This document shows positions 7,214 to 46,353 of a DNA stretch of 64,000 nt, in pieces. The stretch spans positions 62,001 through 126,000 of the forward strand of contig ONDE01000010.1 in the NCBI GenBank assembly GCA_900316515.1, read 5' to 3'. Both the position numbers and the translations under genes were made by a program. Within the stretch, counting starts at the first letter, position 1. Each line of letters starts with the position of its first letter. The stretch comes from an uncultured Bacteroidales bacterium (lineage in GTDB: Bacteria > Bacteroidota > Bacteroidia > Bacteroidales > P3). The notes beneath the pieces are model-generated. The model saw only the letters and a program-made list of their open reading frames with translations, was not told the DNA's origin and did no database searches.

Positions 7214-7269
7214 GAATGGTGGAGCCCTGTAGGGGCGACATATCATAACCGTGGGTGCAAGCCCACGGT
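7214..7269. repeat. Dispersed double-hairpin element, copy 1
   Basis: A short stem GCCC/GGGC at 7214-7226 is followed by an 8-bp perfect stem ACCGTGGG/CCCACGGT at 7248-7255 and 7262-7269 with a 6-nt loop. The GGCGACA-ATCA spacer recurs at 42682-42710 together with GAGCCC and CCCAC ends, so this is a dispersed REP-like family rather than a terminator; there is no T-run. Confidence 0.6.
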
Positions 7270-9790: not shown

Positions 9791-9868
9791 AGGTTGGTAC
9801 GCAGGATGCAGCCTGCGGAGGTGCGATGGTATGGCGGTGAAATTGCGACCACTAAAGGTATTGTCTTT

Positions 9869-10064
9869 AACTTCTTTAACTTCTCTAACCTCCTTAACTC
9901 CTTAACTCCTGCCTCCTTAACTCCTGCCTCCTGAACTCCTTAACTCCTGCCTCCTTAACTCCTTAACTCCTGTCTCCTTAACTCCTTAACTCCTGTCTCC
10001 TTAACTCCTTAACTCCTGTCTCCTTAACTCCTTAACTCCTGTCTCCTTAACTCCTTAACTCCTA
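9869..10064. repeat. TTAACTCC octamer / 23-mer tandem array
   Basis: Repeats of TTAACTCC, maturing into 23-nt units (TAACTCCTTAACTCCTGTCTCCT) towards the right. Ends about 10 nt before the ATPase start codon. Shorter stretches of the same octamer occur at 15300-15332 in the tnaA leader. Confidence 0.9.
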
Positions 10065-10073
10065 AATTTCAAA

Positions 10074-10817
10074 ATGATAACACTCGAACATATAGGACTC
10101 TGCTACGGCAGGCGCGAGATCCTGCGGGATGTCAGCGCCGAGGTTGCCGCAGGACGCGTCACGGCGGTGATGGGTCCCAACGGCTGTGGCAAGACGACGC
10201 TGCTGCGCATCATCGGCGGCCTGCTGGCACCCACGGCAGGCACGGCCTCGGTGGACGGCAGGGCGGTGCAGGACTACGGAGCCCGCGCCCTGGCACAGAA
10301 GGTGGCCTTCGTGCGGCAGCACGCACAGACGGACTTCGACTTCTCGGCCTTCGAGACGGTCCTCATGGGACGCAACCCATGGCAGCGCAGGCTGCAGAAC
10401 GAGAGCCAGGAGGACTGGGACATCGTGGAGCGCTGCATGCGCCAGACAGGCACCTGGGAGCTGCGCTTCGCACGTCCCGACGAGATGAGCGGCGGTGAGC
10501 TGCAGCGCGTGATGATAGCCCGCGCCCTGGCACAGCAGACCCCCGTGCTGCTGATGGACGAGCCGGTGAGCAACCTCGACATAGCACACCAGATAGAGGT
10601 GATGCGGCTGCTGAAACAGGCCACGGACAAGACCGTGGTCATCGTCATCCACGACCTGAACCTGGCATTGCAGTTCTGCGACGACGTGCTGCTGCTGCAC
10701 GACGGCGGACTGCTCTTCCACGGCCCGGTGAAGGAAGGCCTGACTCCCGACCGCATAAGCACCGTATACGGCGTGCAGACCCACATGGCCGACGGGCGGA
10801 TCGTCTTCGACTATTAG
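10074..10817 (+). CDS. ABC importer ATPase, FecE/BtuD family
   Basis: 247 residues with a complete ATPase cassette: Walker A GPNGCGKTT near residue 35, signature MSGGELQRV near 138, Walker B VLLMDEP near 158, and the switch His in VIHDLNLA near 190. It would power import of an iron chelate, haem or corrinoid from the cytoplasmic face of the permease encoded at 8536-9567, its probable partner. The TAG stop codon donates its G to the first unit of a GTGGGTA heptamer array (10817-10844). Confidence 0.92.
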   Translation: MITLEHIGLCYGRREILRDVSAEVAAGRVTAVMGPNGCGKTTLLRIIGGLLAPTAGTASVDGRAVQDYGARALAQKVAFVRQHAQTDFDFSAFETVLMGRNPWQRRLQNESQEDWDIVERCMRQTGTWELRFARPDEMSGGELQRVMIARALAQQTPVLLMDEPVSNLDIAHQIEVMRLLKQATDKTVVIVIHDLNLALQFCDDVLLLHDGGLLFHGPVKEGLTPDRISTVYGVQTHMADGRIVFDY

Positions 10818-10844
10818 TGGGTAGTGGGTAGTGATTAGTGGGTA
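10817..10844. repeat. GTGGGTA heptamer array beginning in a stop codon
   Basis: Four units (GTGGGTA, GTGGGTA, GTGATTA, GTGGGTA); the first G is the last base of the upstream TAG. TAG or TGA recurs in each junction, so frames are closed quickly. Confidence 0.85.
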
Positions 10845-10860
10845 GTAGTCATACTCCTCC

Positions 10861-11000: not shown

Positions 11001-12218
11001 ATGCAGATGAGATATATCGCTCGTATTTTATTGATTGGTGGATTGTTGCTGCTGCCGGCACTGGCTGCCGCACAGAACGACGACCCACGGAAAAACTCGG
11101 AAATAAAGGTCGGCAAACTGGATGTTATCTATGAGGAGGAGGAGTTCAAAGGTGTCGTCGTAGACCAAGACGACGAAGACACCACAGAGACCTATTACTA
11201 CCAGGTGCCGTTCCTGGTGAACCCCGACGAATACGACGAAGACGAGATGCCGCAACCCTTCAGCCTCGGCGACGAGGGTGTGGACAGCGAAGACGACATA
11301 CTGTGGGAGGGTTTCGACACCATGGCCATACACCTGCCCAAGCTGGACCCCTCGACCATCGAAGAGCCCATCATGCTTGAGCTGCCCCGCTTCTCGTGGC
11401 CTACGCCCACGACGGCCCGTCCGTCGTCGCATTTCGGTCCGCGCCGCCGCCGTTTCCACTACGGACTGGACCTGGCGCTGCCCACGGGCGAGCCCATCTA
11501 TGCCGCCTTCGACGGTGTGGTGCGTATATCGAAGCGCAACAAGAGCTACGGCAACCTGGTGATCATACACCATGCCAACGGCCTCGAGACCTACTACGCC
11601 CACATGTCGAAGCGCAATGTCGCTGCCGGCGACCATGTGAAGAGTGGCGACGTCATAGGCCTCTGCGGCAATACAGGCCGCAGCTTCGGCAGCCACCTGC
11701 ACTTCGAGATACGCTATATGGGCAACGCCATGAACCCCGAGGATGTGCTAGACTGCTCGACCCACGACCTGCTGAGCCGCACGCTGTCGCTCAGCTCGAA
11801 TTCATTCCGCAAGGTTGCCAAAGGCGGCAAGGGTGGCGGCACAGGCACAGCCTCGAGCGGCGGCTGGTACCGCGTGCGCCAGGGCGACACCCTGGAGAAG
11901 ATAGCACGAAGGAACGGCACCACGGTGAGACGCCTCTGCCAGCTCAACGGCATCAGCCAGAACAAGACGCTGCACCCCGGCGAAAGGCTGAAGGTCAGCG
12001 GCTCGGCGAGCAGCAGCAAGGCGAGTGCCTCGGCAAGCAAGAACAACAGCACCAGCGGCGCCGGCACATCGGGCGCCAGCACCTATACCGTCAAGAGCGG
12101 CGACACCCTCTACAGCATAGCCAAACGCAACGGCACCACGGTGAAGAAACTCTGCCAACTCAACGGCATCAAGGAGAACGGCAAGCTGCGCGTGGGACAG
12201 AAACTGAAGCTACGCTAG
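11001..12218 (+). CDS. Secreted M23 metallopeptidase with two LysM domains
   Basis: 405 residues from ATG 11001 (ATG 11007 is equally possible; a TTG at 10992 is less likely). The signal peptide ends near ALAAAQ. An acidic D/E-rich stretch (about 40-95) follows, then an M23/LytM domain (about 135-250) with Zn ligands in FHYGLD (H-x3-D) and SHLHFE (H-x-H), and two LysM repeats (about 288-333 and 361-405; [27 protein letters not shown]) separated by a Ser/Ala linker. Predicted peptidoglycan endopeptidase, or an activator of one, in the periplasm or outer membrane; complete Zn ligands favour a real enzyme. The TAG stop shares its G with a heptamer array. Confidence 0.93.
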
Positions 12219-12245
12219 TGGATAGTGGGTAGTGGATAGTGGGTA
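12218..12245. repeat. GTGGATA/GTGGGTA heptamer array beginning in a stop codon
   Basis: Four units alternating GTGGATA and GTGGGTA, starting with the G of the upstream TAG. Fills most of the 41-nt gap before trmD. Confidence 0.88.
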
Positions 12246-12259
12246 GTAAATTGAAGATT

Positions 12260-12934
12260 ATGCGTATAGATATTCTTACACTCTTCCCGAACATGATGAA
12301 CATGTTCTTCGAGGAGAGCATCCTGAAGCGGGCCCAGAAGAAGGGCTTGGTGGAGGTGGTGTTCCACGACCTGCACGACTATTCGCTGACCAAGTACGGC
12401 TCGGTGGACGACTACCCCTACGGCGGTGCCGCCGGCATGGTGATGGCCGTGGAGCCCATAGCCAACTGTATCGAAGGACTGCAGAAAGAGCGCGAATACG
12501 ACGACATCATATATACGGCCCCCGACGGCGAGATGCTCTGTCAGCCTATGGCCAACGAGCTGTCGCTGAAGCAGAACCTGATGGTGCTCTGTGGCCACTA
12601 CAAGGGTGTCGACGAGCGCATAAGGGAGCATTTCATCACCCGCGAGATATCGATAGGCGACTATGTGCTGACGGGTGGCGAGCTGGCCACGGCGGTGATC
12701 TGCGACACCGTGATACGGCTGGTGCCGGGGGTGATAGGCGACGAGCAGTCGGCCCTGGGCGACTCGTTCCAGGACGGCCTGGTGGCGCCGCCGGAGTATA
12801 CGCGGCCGCCGGAGTTCCGCGGCTGGAAGGTGCCCGAGGTGCTGCTCAGCGGCAACCACGCCAAGATAGAGCAGTGGCGCATGGAACAGGCCATACAGCG
12901 CACCAAGGAACGCCGTCCCGACCTACTGAAATAG
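12260..12934 (+). CDS. trmD: tRNA (guanine37-N1)-methyltransferase
   Basis: 224 residues; SPOUT-class enzyme that methylates G37 of tRNAs reading CNN codons and so prevents +1 frameshifting. [10 protein letters not shown] opens the protein and fixes the start. [11 protein letters not shown] near 47, [12 protein letters not shown] near 110 and [13 protein letters not shown] near 130 form the SAM-binding knot, and [14 protein letters not shown] near 158 is the typical flexible lid. Upstream in-frame codons derive from the heptamer array and are excluded. Eight palindromic units begin 8 nt after its stop codon. Confidence 0.96.
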
Positions 12935-12941
12935 TTTTTTT

Positions 12942-13731
12942 TCATTACAGAAGCATTACAGAAATAACAGAAATATACGGAAACCTTTTCTGTAATTATT
13001 CCGTCTTTTCTGTCCTTTTCTGTAATTATTCCGCCTTTTCTGTCCCTTTTCTGTAATTTATAATCATTACAGAAGCATTACAGAAATAACAGAAACAGAC
13101 AGAAATTTTCTGTAATTCTTCCGCTTTTTCTGTCCCTTTCTGTAATTTATAATCATTACAGAAGCATTACGGAAATAACAGAAATATACGGAAACCTTTT
13201 CTGTAATTATTCTGGCGTTTCTGTCCCTTTTCTGTAATTATTCTGGCGTTTCTGTCCCTTTCTGTAATTTATAATCATTACAGAAGCATTACAGAAATAA
13301 CAGAAATATACGGAAACCTTTTCTGTAATTATTCTGGCGTTTCTGTCCCTTTTCTGTAATTTATAATCATTACAGAAGCATTACGGAAATAACAGAAACA
13401 GACAGAAACCTTTTCTGTAATTATTCTGGCGTTTCTGTCCCTTTTCTGTAATTTATAATCATTACAGAAGCATTACGGAAATAACAGAAACAGACAGAAA
13501 ACTTTTCTGTAATTCTTCCGCCTTTTCTGCCCCTTTCTGTAATTTATAATCATTACAGAAGCATTACAGAAATAACAGAAATATACAGAAACCTTTTCTG
13601 TAATTCTTCCGCTTTTTCTGCCCTTTTCTGTAATTTATAATCATTACAGAAGCATTACAGAAATAACAGAAATATACGGAAACCTTTTCTGTAATTATTC
13701 TGGCGTTTCTGGGCTTTTCTGTAACATAATC
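12942..13731. repeat. Tandem array of eight roughly 91-bp palindromic units
   Basis: Units start with CATTACAGAAGCATTAC at 12942, 13065, 13154, 13276, 13368, 13460, 13551 and 13642. Steps are 123, 89, 122, 92, 92, 91 and 91 nt; the two long steps carry one extra block (CTGTAATTATTC-type) of about 31-33 nt. The left half of each unit holds about four ACAGAA/ACGGAA words, the right half about four TTCTGT/TTCCGT words, so every unit can fold into one long imperfect hairpin bounded by ATTACAGAA and TTCTGTAAT. No start codon-rich frame is present. One solitary unit lies at 42718-42801. Confidence 0.95.
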
Positions 13732-13751: not shown

Positions 13752-13781
13752 AAAAAAAGGAGACCCCTGTAAGAGGTCTCC
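13752..13781 (-). terminator. Intrinsic terminator of tnaA
   Basis: On the minus strand a 7-bp perfect stem GGAGACC/GGTCTCC (13781-13775 with 13765-13759, 9-nt loop) is followed by seven T (13758-13752). It lies 32 nt after the tnaA stop codon. Confidence 0.88.
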
Positions 13782-13812: not shown

Positions 13813-15189
13813 TTAGCCGAGGCGTTTGAACTGGCAGGTGAAGTGGCGCATGAGCTCGGCCTCCCAGGTGATCTCGAGACCGCGTTTGATGCTGTCGCGA
13901 CGGTCGTAGACATTCTTGAGGGCGGCGGCGATGACGTCCATGTGGTTGTTGGTGTAGACGCGGCGCGGGATGCAGAGGCGCACGAAGTCGTTGCCACCGA
14001 AGCGGTTCTCGCGGGTCACGGGGTCACGGTCGGCGAGGACGTAGCCGATCTCGCAGGCGCGGATACCGGCCTCGAGGTAGAGCTCGCAGGTGAGGGTCTG
14101 GGCAGGGAACTCCTCCTTGGGGATGTTGGTGAGCACCTTGTCGGCGTCGACGAAGATGGCGTGGCCACCGGCGGGACGCTGGTAGGGGATGCCGTACTCG
14201 TCGAGCTTGGCGGCGAGGTAGTGGACCTGTTTGATGCGGGTCTCGACCATCTCGAACTCGATGTTCTCCTTGAGACCGACGGCGAGGGCGTCCATGTCGC
14301 GGCCGTTCATACCGCCGTAGGTGAGGAAGCCTTCGAAGGGGATGCAGAACATCTTGGCACCTTCGTACCACTCCTGCTTGTTGGTGGCGATGAAGCCGCC
14401 CATGTTCACGAGGCCGTCCTTCTTGGCGCTCATGGTCATGCAGTCGGCGTAGCTGAACATCTCCTTGCAGATCTCGCGCAGGGTCTTGTTCTCGTAGCCT
14501 TTCTCGCGGGTCTTGATGAAGTAGGCATTCTCGATGAAACGGGCGCTGTCGACGTTGACGGGGACACCGTATTTGTGGCAGAGTTCGCAGGTCTCGCGGA
14601 TGTTCTGCATGCTGACGGGCTGGCCGCCGACGGTGTTGTTGGTGACGGTGAGGACCATGAAGGGGACGTTGCCCTTGTTCTCTTTGAGGAGCTTCTCGAG
14701 TTTCTCGAGGTCGACATTACCTTTGAAGGGGACTTCGAGCTGGGTGTCGTAAGCCTCTTTCACAGTGACGTCGATGGCGAAGGCCTTGCGGCTCTCGATG
14801 TGGCCCTTGGTGGTGTCGAAATGGGCGTTGCCGGGGATGATGTTGCCGGGTTTCACGAGGTAGCTGAACAGCACGTTCTCGGCTGCACGGCCCTGGTGGG
14901 TGGGGATGACATAGTTGAAGCCGGTGAGCTCGGTGATGGTGTCCTTCATGTGGTAGAAGGAGCGTGCGCCGCCGTAGCTCTCGTCGCCCATCATCATAGC
15001 GGCCCACTGGCGGTCGCTCATGGCGCCGGTGCCGGAGTCGGTGAGGAGGTCGATGTAGACGTAGTCGCTCTTGAGCATGAACACGTTCTGGTGGGCTTCG
15101 TTGAGCCATTTCTCGCGCTGCTCGCGGGTGCTCTTCTTGATGGGTTCAACCATCTTGATTTTCCAAGCTTCTGCAAATGGTAATTCCAT
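13813..15189 (-). CDS. tnaA: Tryptophanase (tryptophan indole-lyase)
   Basis: 458 residues; PLP enzyme cleaving tryptophan to indole, pyruvate and ammonia. IDLLTDSGTGAMSD near 46, PTHQGRAAEN near 96 and MSAKKDG with the PLP lysine near 257 are the beta-eliminating lyase signatures. I prefer tryptophanase over tyrosine phenol-lyase because the residue in FDTTKGH (about 125) is Asp, as in TnaA, not Thr, and because GIRACEIG has Ile where tyrosine phenol-lyase has its substrate-carboxylate Arg. Start is MELPFAEAW; upstream in-frame codons belong to the leader. It has a leader of about 220 nt, with a small ORF and a strong hairpin, and its own terminator. Confidence 0.92.
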   Translation of the reverse strand: MELPFAEAWKIKMVEPIKKSTREQREKWLNEAHQNVFMLKSDYVYIDLLTDSGTGAMSDRQWAAMMMGDESYGGARSFYHMKDTITELTGFNYVIPTHQGRAAENVLFSYLVKPGNIIPGNAHFDTTKGHIESRKAFAIDVTVKEAYDTQLEVPFKGNVDLEKLEKLLKENKGNVPFMVLTVTNNTVGGQPVSMQNIRETCELCHKYGVPVNVDSARFIENAYFIKTREKGYENKTLREICKEMFSYADCMTMSAKKDGLVNMGGFIATNKQEWYEGAKMFCIPFEGFLTYGGMNGRDMDALAVGLKENIEFEMVETRIKQVHYLAAKLDEYGIPYQRPAGGHAIFVDADKVLTNIPKEEFPAQTLTCELYLEAGIRACEIGYVLADRDPVTRENRFGGNDFVRLCIPRRVYTNNHMDVIAAALKNVYDRRDSIKRGLEITWEAELMRHFTCQFKRLG

Positions 15190-15428
15190 AATTTTGATGT
15201 TTTTATTGTTATTATTGATTGATAAAATGCAACGGAAACGACCTTGGGGTCGGTGTCGAGGGTGGAGCTGTGGCCGGTAAGGAGGACATGTAGCCATTGT
15301 CTTAACTCCTTAACTTCTTAACTCCTTAACTACTAGAAATGACAAACGTCTCTCTTCTTGATGTTTAAGAAGAGATGATGGATAGACGTGTATGGATTAT
15401 AGGCTGTCATAAGACGGGTGCAAAAGTA
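15190..15428 (-). promoter_or_regulatory. tnaA promoter and 220-nt structured leader
   Basis: The -7 box TACTTTTG lies at 15428-15421 on the minus strand, so transcription should start near 15413. The leader contains a possible 25-codon ORF (ATG at about 15405, ending in TAG near 15329; peptide begins MTAYNPYTSIHH and contains no Trp), overlapped by a hairpin with a 9-bp perfect stem TCTCTTCTT/AAGAAGAGA (15351-15359 with 15367-15375), and then TTAACTCC-type repeats (15300-15332). Attenuation is inferred by analogy with TnaC; the sequence is not TnaC-like. Confidence 0.5.
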
Positions 15429-24136: not shown

Positions 24137-24653
24137 CAAGTGGGTAGTGGGTAGTGGACAGTGGGTAGTGGTTTGCTGCCTGTTGTTGCTGTTGGTGGGT
24201 TGTACCGGCGGGTATTCGTTCACTGGCGCGTCAATACCGCCCGGGGCGAAGACCATCTCGGTGGCGACGTTTCCGAACTATGCCTCGACGGTGAACCCCC
24301 AGCTGAGCCAGAAGCTCACCGACGAGTTGATGCAGATGTTCTCGAGCCAGACATCGCTGAGTGTCACCAATGCCGAAGGCGACCTGCAGGTGAGCGGCGA
24401 GATTGTAGGCTATGACACCCGCGCTTCGGCATTGTCGAGCAGCGACGAGGTGAGCATGAACCGCCTCACCATAACCGTCCGCGTGAAGTTCGTGAACAAC
24501 ATAGACCCCGAGGCCGACTTCGAGCAGTCGTTCTCGCGCTATCGCGACTACGCCGCCTCGCAGGATTTCTCGTCGGTGGAGAACACCCTGGTGGGCGAGA
24601 TAGTCACCGAACTATGCGAAGACATATTCAACAAGGCTGTGGTCAACTGGTAA
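24114..24653 (+). CDS. lptE: LPS-assembly lipoprotein LptE
   Basis: 179 residues; outer-membrane lipoprotein that plugs LptD and receives LPS from the periplasmic bridge. Lipobox LVGC with acylated Cys near 30; mature domain GYSFTGASIPPGAKTISVAT, PQLSQKLTDELMQMFSSQTS and a conserved C-terminal half match the Bacteroidota LptE family (PF04390). The signal peptide is unusual: residues 9-20 (KWVVGSGQWVVV) are encoded by 4.6 copies of a GTGGGTA heptamer (24140-24171). The third copy is GTGGACA, which gives CAG in frame where GTGGATA or GTGGGTA would give TAG. No lptD is nearby; lptC is at 33952-34524. Confidence 0.88.
   Translation: MKTRGIFNKWVVGSGQWVVVCCLLLLLVGCTGGYSFTGASIPPGAKTISVATFPNYASTVNPQLSQKLTDELMQMFSSQTSLSVTNAEGDLQVSGEIVGYDTRASALSSSDEVSMNRLTITVRVKFVNNIDPEADFEQSFSRYRDYAASQDFSSVENTLVGEIVTELCEDIFNKAVVNW
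24140..24171. repeat. Translated GTGGGTA heptamer array inside lptE
   Basis: Units GTGGGTA, GTGGGTA, GTGGACA, GTGGGTA, GTGG. Same family as the untranslated arrays at 10817, 12218 and (reverse) 46173. The C at 24159 keeps the lptE frame open. Confidence 0.9.
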
Positions 24654-40754: not shown

Positions 40755-41095
40755 AGTTTGCCTATAATCAAGGACAAAAAATTCGTTTAATTCGCAAAAT
40801 TCGCCGTTAACAATCAACCCTGAACCATTAACCCTGAACCATTAATACTTCGAGTAATTCGCTAGTAACAATAATTCGAGTTAATTCGTCTAATTCGCCG
40901 TTCACAAATAACCCTGAACCATTAATACTTCGAGTAATTCGCCTATAATCAAGGGCAAAAAATTCGAGTTAATTCGCAAAATTCGCCGTTAACAAATAAC
41001 CCTGAACCATTAATACTTCGAGTAATTCGCCTATAATCAAGGGCAAAAAATTCGTTTAATTCGCAAAATTCGCCGTTAACTTAATTCGCAAAATT
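40755..41095. repeat. Tandem repeat of 87-95 nt
   Basis: The landmark TTCGCCGTT occurs at 40800, 40895, 40982 and 41069 (steps 95, 87, 87). Units include CCCTGAACCATTAATAC, TTCGAGTAATTCGC and AAGGGCAAAAAATTCG. Related fragments in reverse complement occur at 7152-7215. Confidence 0.88.
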
Positions 41096-41215
41096 CACCG
41101 TTCACTTCACTTAAAGCTCACAGCCTAAAACCAAGAACGTTCCCCGCCAACTGCCACTAACCACTATTCATCTCTCACTCCACCCAAAAAAAACACACAT
41201 ATCGGAAAAAATGTG

Positions 41216-42717: not shown

Positions 42718-42801
42718 TATTACAGAAAAGGGCAGAAAAGACGGAAGAATTACAGAAAAGGTTTCTGTCTGTTTCTGTTTTTTCCGTAATGCTTCTGTAA
42801 T
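42718..42801 (-). repeat. Solitary copy of the 91-bp palindromic unit
   Basis: On the minus strand it begins CATTACAGAAGCATTACGG and ends CCTTTTCTGTAAT with the same internal order of ACAGAA and TTCTGT words as the eight-copy array at 12942-13731. It lies 26 nt after the LRR gene stop, with the same orientation relative to that gene as the array has to trmD. Confidence 0.93.

Positions 42802-45631: not shown

Positions 45632-46353
<722 letters not shown>

Follow-up and report, generated by a model that had tools for sequence, protein, structure and literature searches.

BrickBuilt elements of Porphyromonas gingivalis are MITEs with internal minisatellites. In REPINs and REPtrons, REP hairpins are associated with RAYT transposases, which are thought to promote the spread of REPINs (PMC3116915, PMC3733652). 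The intervening sequences (IVSs) of 23S rRNA, for example in Coxiella burnetii, represent small selfish elements, whose stem-forming terminal inverted repeats surround an S23 gene (PMC4990558). Intergenic heptamer repeats, such as TAACTGA, occur in Beggiatoaceae, Cyanobacteria and Bacteroidetes; these are direct repeats, translational regulation has been proposed for them, and S23 is unmentioned in the main text of that work (PMC4679880).

The array considered here was found in a 64,000-nt stretch of Bacteroidales DNA, analysed as a whole and called the window below. Like REPINs and REPtrons, it consists of gene-less intergenic hairpins, forms tandem clusters and has a gene-bearing relative with these repeats on both sides. 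Unlike them, it is partnered by a GxxExxY or S23 gene instead of a tyrosine transposase, carries no GTAG/CGTC tag and has arms made of iterated words that differ from one cassette to another, in a genome without Y1_Tnp. With IVSs it shares terminal inverted repeats that make a stem, and the S23 cassettes described below follow the IVS plan. In contrast to IVSs, the array is flanked by two protein genes, one of them trmD, and lies outside 23S rRNA; its ACRGAA word family pairs with GxxExxY, holds no S23 inside and forms gene-less tandem arrays, S23 being found in sister cassettes. Heptamer repeats resemble it as short intergenic words near stops and starts, and the S23 arms share their 7-nt period. 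By its description, BrickBuilt is similar in being non-autonomous, with inverted ends and tandem repeats, and in belonging to Bacteroidota. The element has the terminal inverted repeats, the lack of a gene and the dispersed copies of a MITE; no transposase with matching ends was found for it, and GxxExxY was the only gene found between copies. It also has the inverted 9-11 nt words of a GxxExxY-cassette arm, and elsewhere in this genome a GxxExxY gene is bordered by these very words. The earlier note knew of no described element of this form, and our searches likewise found none. Nor is the association of a GxxExxY or S23 gene with word arms described in the literature searched, which consisted mainly of open-access journal papers.

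We suggest that the array derives from small inserting cassettes and that its units are gene-less, hairpin-forming versions of them. Together with the mechanism proposed below, this is our best explanation of the whole, and we give it a probability of about 0.68.

Mapping of units and words confirmed the regular tandem array of eight palindromic units directly behind trmD (12944-13725, + strand; Table 1), between trmD and a convergent gene. Successive units start 122, 89, 122, 92, 92, 91 and 91 nt apart; the regular spacing of 89-92 nt reported earlier thus stands, and both longer steps measure 122 nt. A unit is 80-84 nt of iterated words with the ends ATTACAG...CTGTAAT. Its left side contains exactly four ACRGAA-type words in all eight cases, at spacings of 11, 9 and 10. 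The claim of four further, inverted words on the right holds for six units and fails for units 1 and 3, where seven arose by doubling of a three-word block. The blocks show TTCCG in unit 1 and TTCTGGCG in unit 3. Each extra block is closest to its own neighbour block and not to the other, which points to two local duplications, or to one followed by homogenisation, and contradicts the single internal block duplication by which the longer steps had been explained. A constant 8-nt spacer, TTATAATC, precedes each of units 2-8. Such identity suggests tandem amplification, not repeated insertion, and, with this spacer in place of unique ones, the view that the array is not CRISPR-like proved right. 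Chance does not account for the array: ACRGAA words reach a density of 73.5 per kb in the array versus 0.84 per kb in the rest of the window, and a 29-nt core has 9 matches in the window versus 0 in 100 dinucleotide shuffles. Rfam gave no match to the array, and the window contains no rRNA and neither an S23 nor a GxxExxY gene.

Table 1. Positions in the window of the array units, the solitary copy and neighbouring features.
Feature	Position	Strand	Remarks
Unit 1	12944..13057	+	4 left words, 7 right words; 30-nt block doubled
Unit 2	13066..13146	+	
Unit 3	13155..13268	+	4 left words, 7 right words; 31-nt block doubled
Unit 4	13277..13360	+	query unit; predicted RNA fold -30 kcal/mol, z = -8.2
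Unit 5	13369..13452	+	
Unit 6	13461..13543	+	
Unit 7	13552..13634	+	
Unit 8	13643..13725	+	outermost base pair lost; GTAAC end
Solitary copy of the array element	42719..42801	-	88% identity to unit 4
trmD, upstream neighbour of the array	12260..12934	+	trmD homologue in 110 of 119 genomes of the genus
ORF with the convergent neighbour gene	13813..15297	-	presumably tryptophanase-like
Intrinsic-terminator-like hairpin of the convergent gene	13759..13781	-	separate from the array

Further copies are scattered behind, before and between unrelated genes. The earlier note had proposed a genome-wide count and a covariance model. The same genome holds, on its contigs, C14:104719 (the solitary copy of Table 1), C10:45593 (just before era), C8:67117, C8:67605, C9:7924, C19:22271, C19:22393 and C18:9108. 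Half-elements, in which a single side has words, were found on C24 and in genome G113, and tandem growth is seen also on C19 and on G077 C7. Within the genus, copies were found in G077, G047, G063 and G023; by DNA search the ACRGAA family is present in only 6 of 99 genomes, and the majority of the 99-119 genomes searched lack it. The covariance model reached sister arrays made of other words, for example GCAGAAA (G071) and GCGAAA (G092). A pattern scan of genome contigs yielded three true copies, all in Bacteroidales genomes, one of them from sheep rumen; the other six matches look like chance, being mostly coding and devoid of a surrounding palindrome. No ACRGAA copies were found in plasmids, phages or viral contigs. 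As a separate observation, the tandem duplication on G077 C7 (L054, L056) extends into the neighbouring gene and includes its 3' end, and C9:7924 keeps a remnant of that duplication.

The gene-bearing form is represented by the two C8 copies (67117-67196 and 67605-67684), which flank a 129-aa GxxExxY gene (TIGR04256, PF13366 PDDEXK_3). The sister arrays of G071 flank another such gene, and GxxExxY genes are present in 82 of 119 genomes of the genus. For 86 of them, the 300-nt upstream flank was aligned with the reverse-complemented downstream flank of equal length. These were the best-scoring genes, from related and hence non-independent species (partly offset by the swapped control and the phylum-wide set), and their inverted score had a median of 40.5 and a mean of 42.0, as against 24.8 in the best of 5000 permutations. 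Medians were 19 in direct orientation, 18 with arms swapped between cassettes, 18 for trmD/era genes (n = 51) and 17 for window genes (n = 52); a score of at least 30 was reached by 0/51 and 0/52 of these control genes. The excess extends to other Bacteroidota families: a phylum-wide set of 27 GxxExxY loci, often with ACAGAG words, had a mean of 32.3 (permutation maximum 24.4), and S23 genes of the genus (n = 25) one of 51.4 (permutation maximum 32.0). The survey covered these two gene families, GxxExxY and S23.

Words vary from cassette to cassette, even in one genome, yet the left and right arms of one cassette match, so that the complementarity of the two arms is kept in cassettes of very different words. 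The word period goes with the gene, mostly 9-11 nt for GxxExxY and 7-8 nt for S23. In 77% of cassettes the layout is arm-gene-arm; a minority, which includes C8 and G071, has palindromes on a side. At C8 a whole palindrome stands on each side of the gene in direct orientation, and this departure from the common layout counts against our explanation. The word ACRGAA, the period of 9-11 nt and the flanking position at C8 place the trmD unit in the GxxExxY type. Membership of the array in this cassette class, as a tandemly amplified derivative without a gene, is well supported, and we regard it as highly probable. Short genes between mirror-image word runs are probably a widespread and undescribed kind of cassette, of which the array units would be gene-less copies. 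The earlier note had missed the dispersal of the unit, its place beside a GxxExxY gene of this genome and its relation to this far larger class.

The junction before era allows occupied and empty sites to be compared in 30 species, four loci being unclassifiable. In 14 of the 30 it is empty, with -1 to 4 nt between the upstream stop and the era ATG (e.g. TAATG). An ACRGAA unit lies there in one orientation in G000 and G077 and in the opposite one in G047 (L139 versus L137 and L138). S23-bearing cassettes, confirmed by profile search, occupy the junction in G068, G012 and G073. Gene-less elements of GGCGAATT words, shared with GxxExxY cassettes, are found in G010 and G049, and gene-less elements with still other words in G106, G009, G087 and G069. 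Gene-less elements at this junction thus comprise at least four word types, ACRGAA included. Gene-bearing and gene-less forms are therefore alternatives at one site, as would be expected of an inserting element that has both a gene-bearing and a non-autonomous version. From these occupied and empty sites we infer that the element has been mobile in the past, which is likely, if less firmly so than its class membership. The junction elements may instead have expanded in place from a pre-existing word. By eye, no target-site duplication is evident at the trmD, 42719 and era sites. The Era GTPase of this genome (L010 1598-1897) and of about nine other species of the genus contains, for its part, an in-frame insert of some 20 aa at residues 50-69, missing from most of the genus and possibly an RPE-like protein insert.

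The long hairpin ascribed to each unit by the earlier note is upheld as a prediction, the strong fold of unit 4 consisting of nested word-to-word helices with internal loops. The C10 copy before era, C8b and the G047 copy before era prefer, or can form, perfect or near-perfect offset-half hairpins of 16-18 bp, again by prediction. Compensatory changes among copies had been named beforehand as the test on which the note would fall, and here the result went against it: a double change was seen in 1 of 29 pairs, which shuffled copies equalled. For the 15 distinct copies, the nested structure and both offset ones all did no better than shuffles, in a within-family test that is weak because most word positions never vary. 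The variable third letter of the word (A/G) changes independently on the left and right sides.

The GxxExxY protein is predicted to be a Cas4-like PD-(D/E)XK nuclease. E31, D71, E81-x-K83 and Q95, residues expected of such a nuclease, are invariant in 40 sequences. The structure model (pLDDT 93.5) has its best PDB fold match in SSO0001, which we take to be a Cas4 protein (E 4.5e-5), and a weaker one in lambda exonuclease. A sequence search of PDB gave no relative, as opposed to the fold search.

We propose that an inserting cassette comprises one short gene, for a GxxExxY nuclease-like protein or an S23 four-helix bundle, within inverted arms of iterated words. The arms would fold as single strands, either as DNA or in the transcript. 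The predicted Cas4-like protein might then act on folded arms, both its own and those of gene-less copies, and promote their spread. If the transcribed stem were cut as in 23S rRNA intervening sequences, insertion between genes would be tolerated. The trmD array could subsequently have grown by unequal exchange or replication slippage. Of this scheme, the cassette-specific inverted arms, the alternation of gene-bearing and gene-less forms at one operon junction, the dispersed copies and the tandem array with its constant spacer of 8 nt are observed. Movement of folded arms by the cassette protein, combined with RNase III-like processing of stems in transcripts, is argued by analogy with REPINs and their RAYTs and with IVS elements and is a tentative suggestion, to which we would give clearly less than even odds. 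Against the explanation, one architecture is common to two unrelated gene families, and the protein could therefore be cargo instead of the mobiliser. The lack of compensatory changes in the ACRGAA family, its presence in only 6 of 99 genomes of the genus by DNA search, and the fact that neither transposition itself nor a clear target-site duplication was seen weigh on the same side.

Other origins of the array have to be weighed against this. Template switching and slippage at palindromes might make the words and keep them alike, the genes merely lying in prone regions with nothing being mobilised. The perfect offset hairpins of some copies (C10 before era), the local block duplications, tandem growth at trmD, C19 and G077 C7, and the missing compensatory signal within the family would all suit such a neutral repeat. 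We nevertheless consider it unlikely, as the element stands at several unlinked sites, as relatives of its carriers have an empty era junction, and as control genes lack the mirror words that accompany GxxExxY and S23 genes. Binding of a host protein to double-stranded DNA is less probable still. Words spaced by 11, 9 and 10, close to one helical turn (9-11 bp), could be its sites, and palindromy would reflect their orientation, not folding; conservation of ACRGAA on each side independently of its partner and the half-elements of C24 and G113 agree with this. A single host protein is nevertheless inadequate for words that differ per cassette in one genome and match from left to right, and the 7-8 nt period of S23 cassettes is off the helical turn.

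No support was found for a role of the array in the trmD 3' end. Protection or termination of the transcript by 3' UTR hairpins would fit the location directly behind trmD and the strong predicted fold, but the relatives examined have no such element behind trmD, and copies lie near unrelated genes. The hairpins are followed by no T-run, no terminator was scored in the array, and the only terminator-like hairpin in the vicinity is on the opposite strand. We judge this very improbable. Even more so is mobilisation by a REP-associated tyrosine transposase, as for a REP/REPIN element: dispersed, extragenic and palindromic copies, with a gene flanked by them, recall one, but the genome has no Y1_Tnp (PF01797), the GTAG/CGTC tag is absent and the units are 80-84 nt of iterated words.

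If the cassette explanation is right, the puzzling trmD array gains a testable identity, and several unexplained things become connected: GxxExxY proteins (little named in the literature searched), S23 proteins encoded elsewhere than in rRNA, and the word repeats so common between genes. If the gene and its arms are parts of a single element, the hairpin of these arms becomes the predicted substrate for a gene of no assigned function, and the role of the S23 gene in rRNA intervening sequences could be approached through its cousins at protein-gene junctions. We may even be dealing with a new class of mobile element: one small gene (GxxExxY Cas4-like nuclease or S23) within mirror-image word runs, whose word can vary provided that the two arms vary jointly, the period set by the gene and gene-less copies spreading as hairpin arrays. 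This broader proposal falls somewhat short of even odds; if true, many bacterial intergenic heptamer and 9-11-mer repeats would be cassette arms or relics.

Several other features were seen in passing. Runs of 7-8 nt words lie at window positions 9864-10065, 10815-10846, 12216-12247, 24139-24171 and 46172-46204. Their words (TTAACTCC, TAGTGGG/TAGTGGA and CCACTAC) are like those that make up S23 cassette arms, both here and in the genus (L328, L330), and the runs are probably gene-less or relic arms. At 40760-41107 there is an array of AATTCG words with an 88-nt period and a single orientation; the same words form the right arm of many GxxExxY cassettes (GAGTAATTCGCCGTTAA). The left-arm word often starts at or overlaps the upstream stop codon, as do TAATTTCTAATTTC, TGATTTGTGATTTC and TAGTGGG (L141, L152, L161, L328, window 12216), as if insertion or word growth began at stop codons. 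Finally, positions 7223-7268 (- strand) of the window match the Rfam Acido-Lenti-1 RNA with 40.2 bits, the gathering score being 37.
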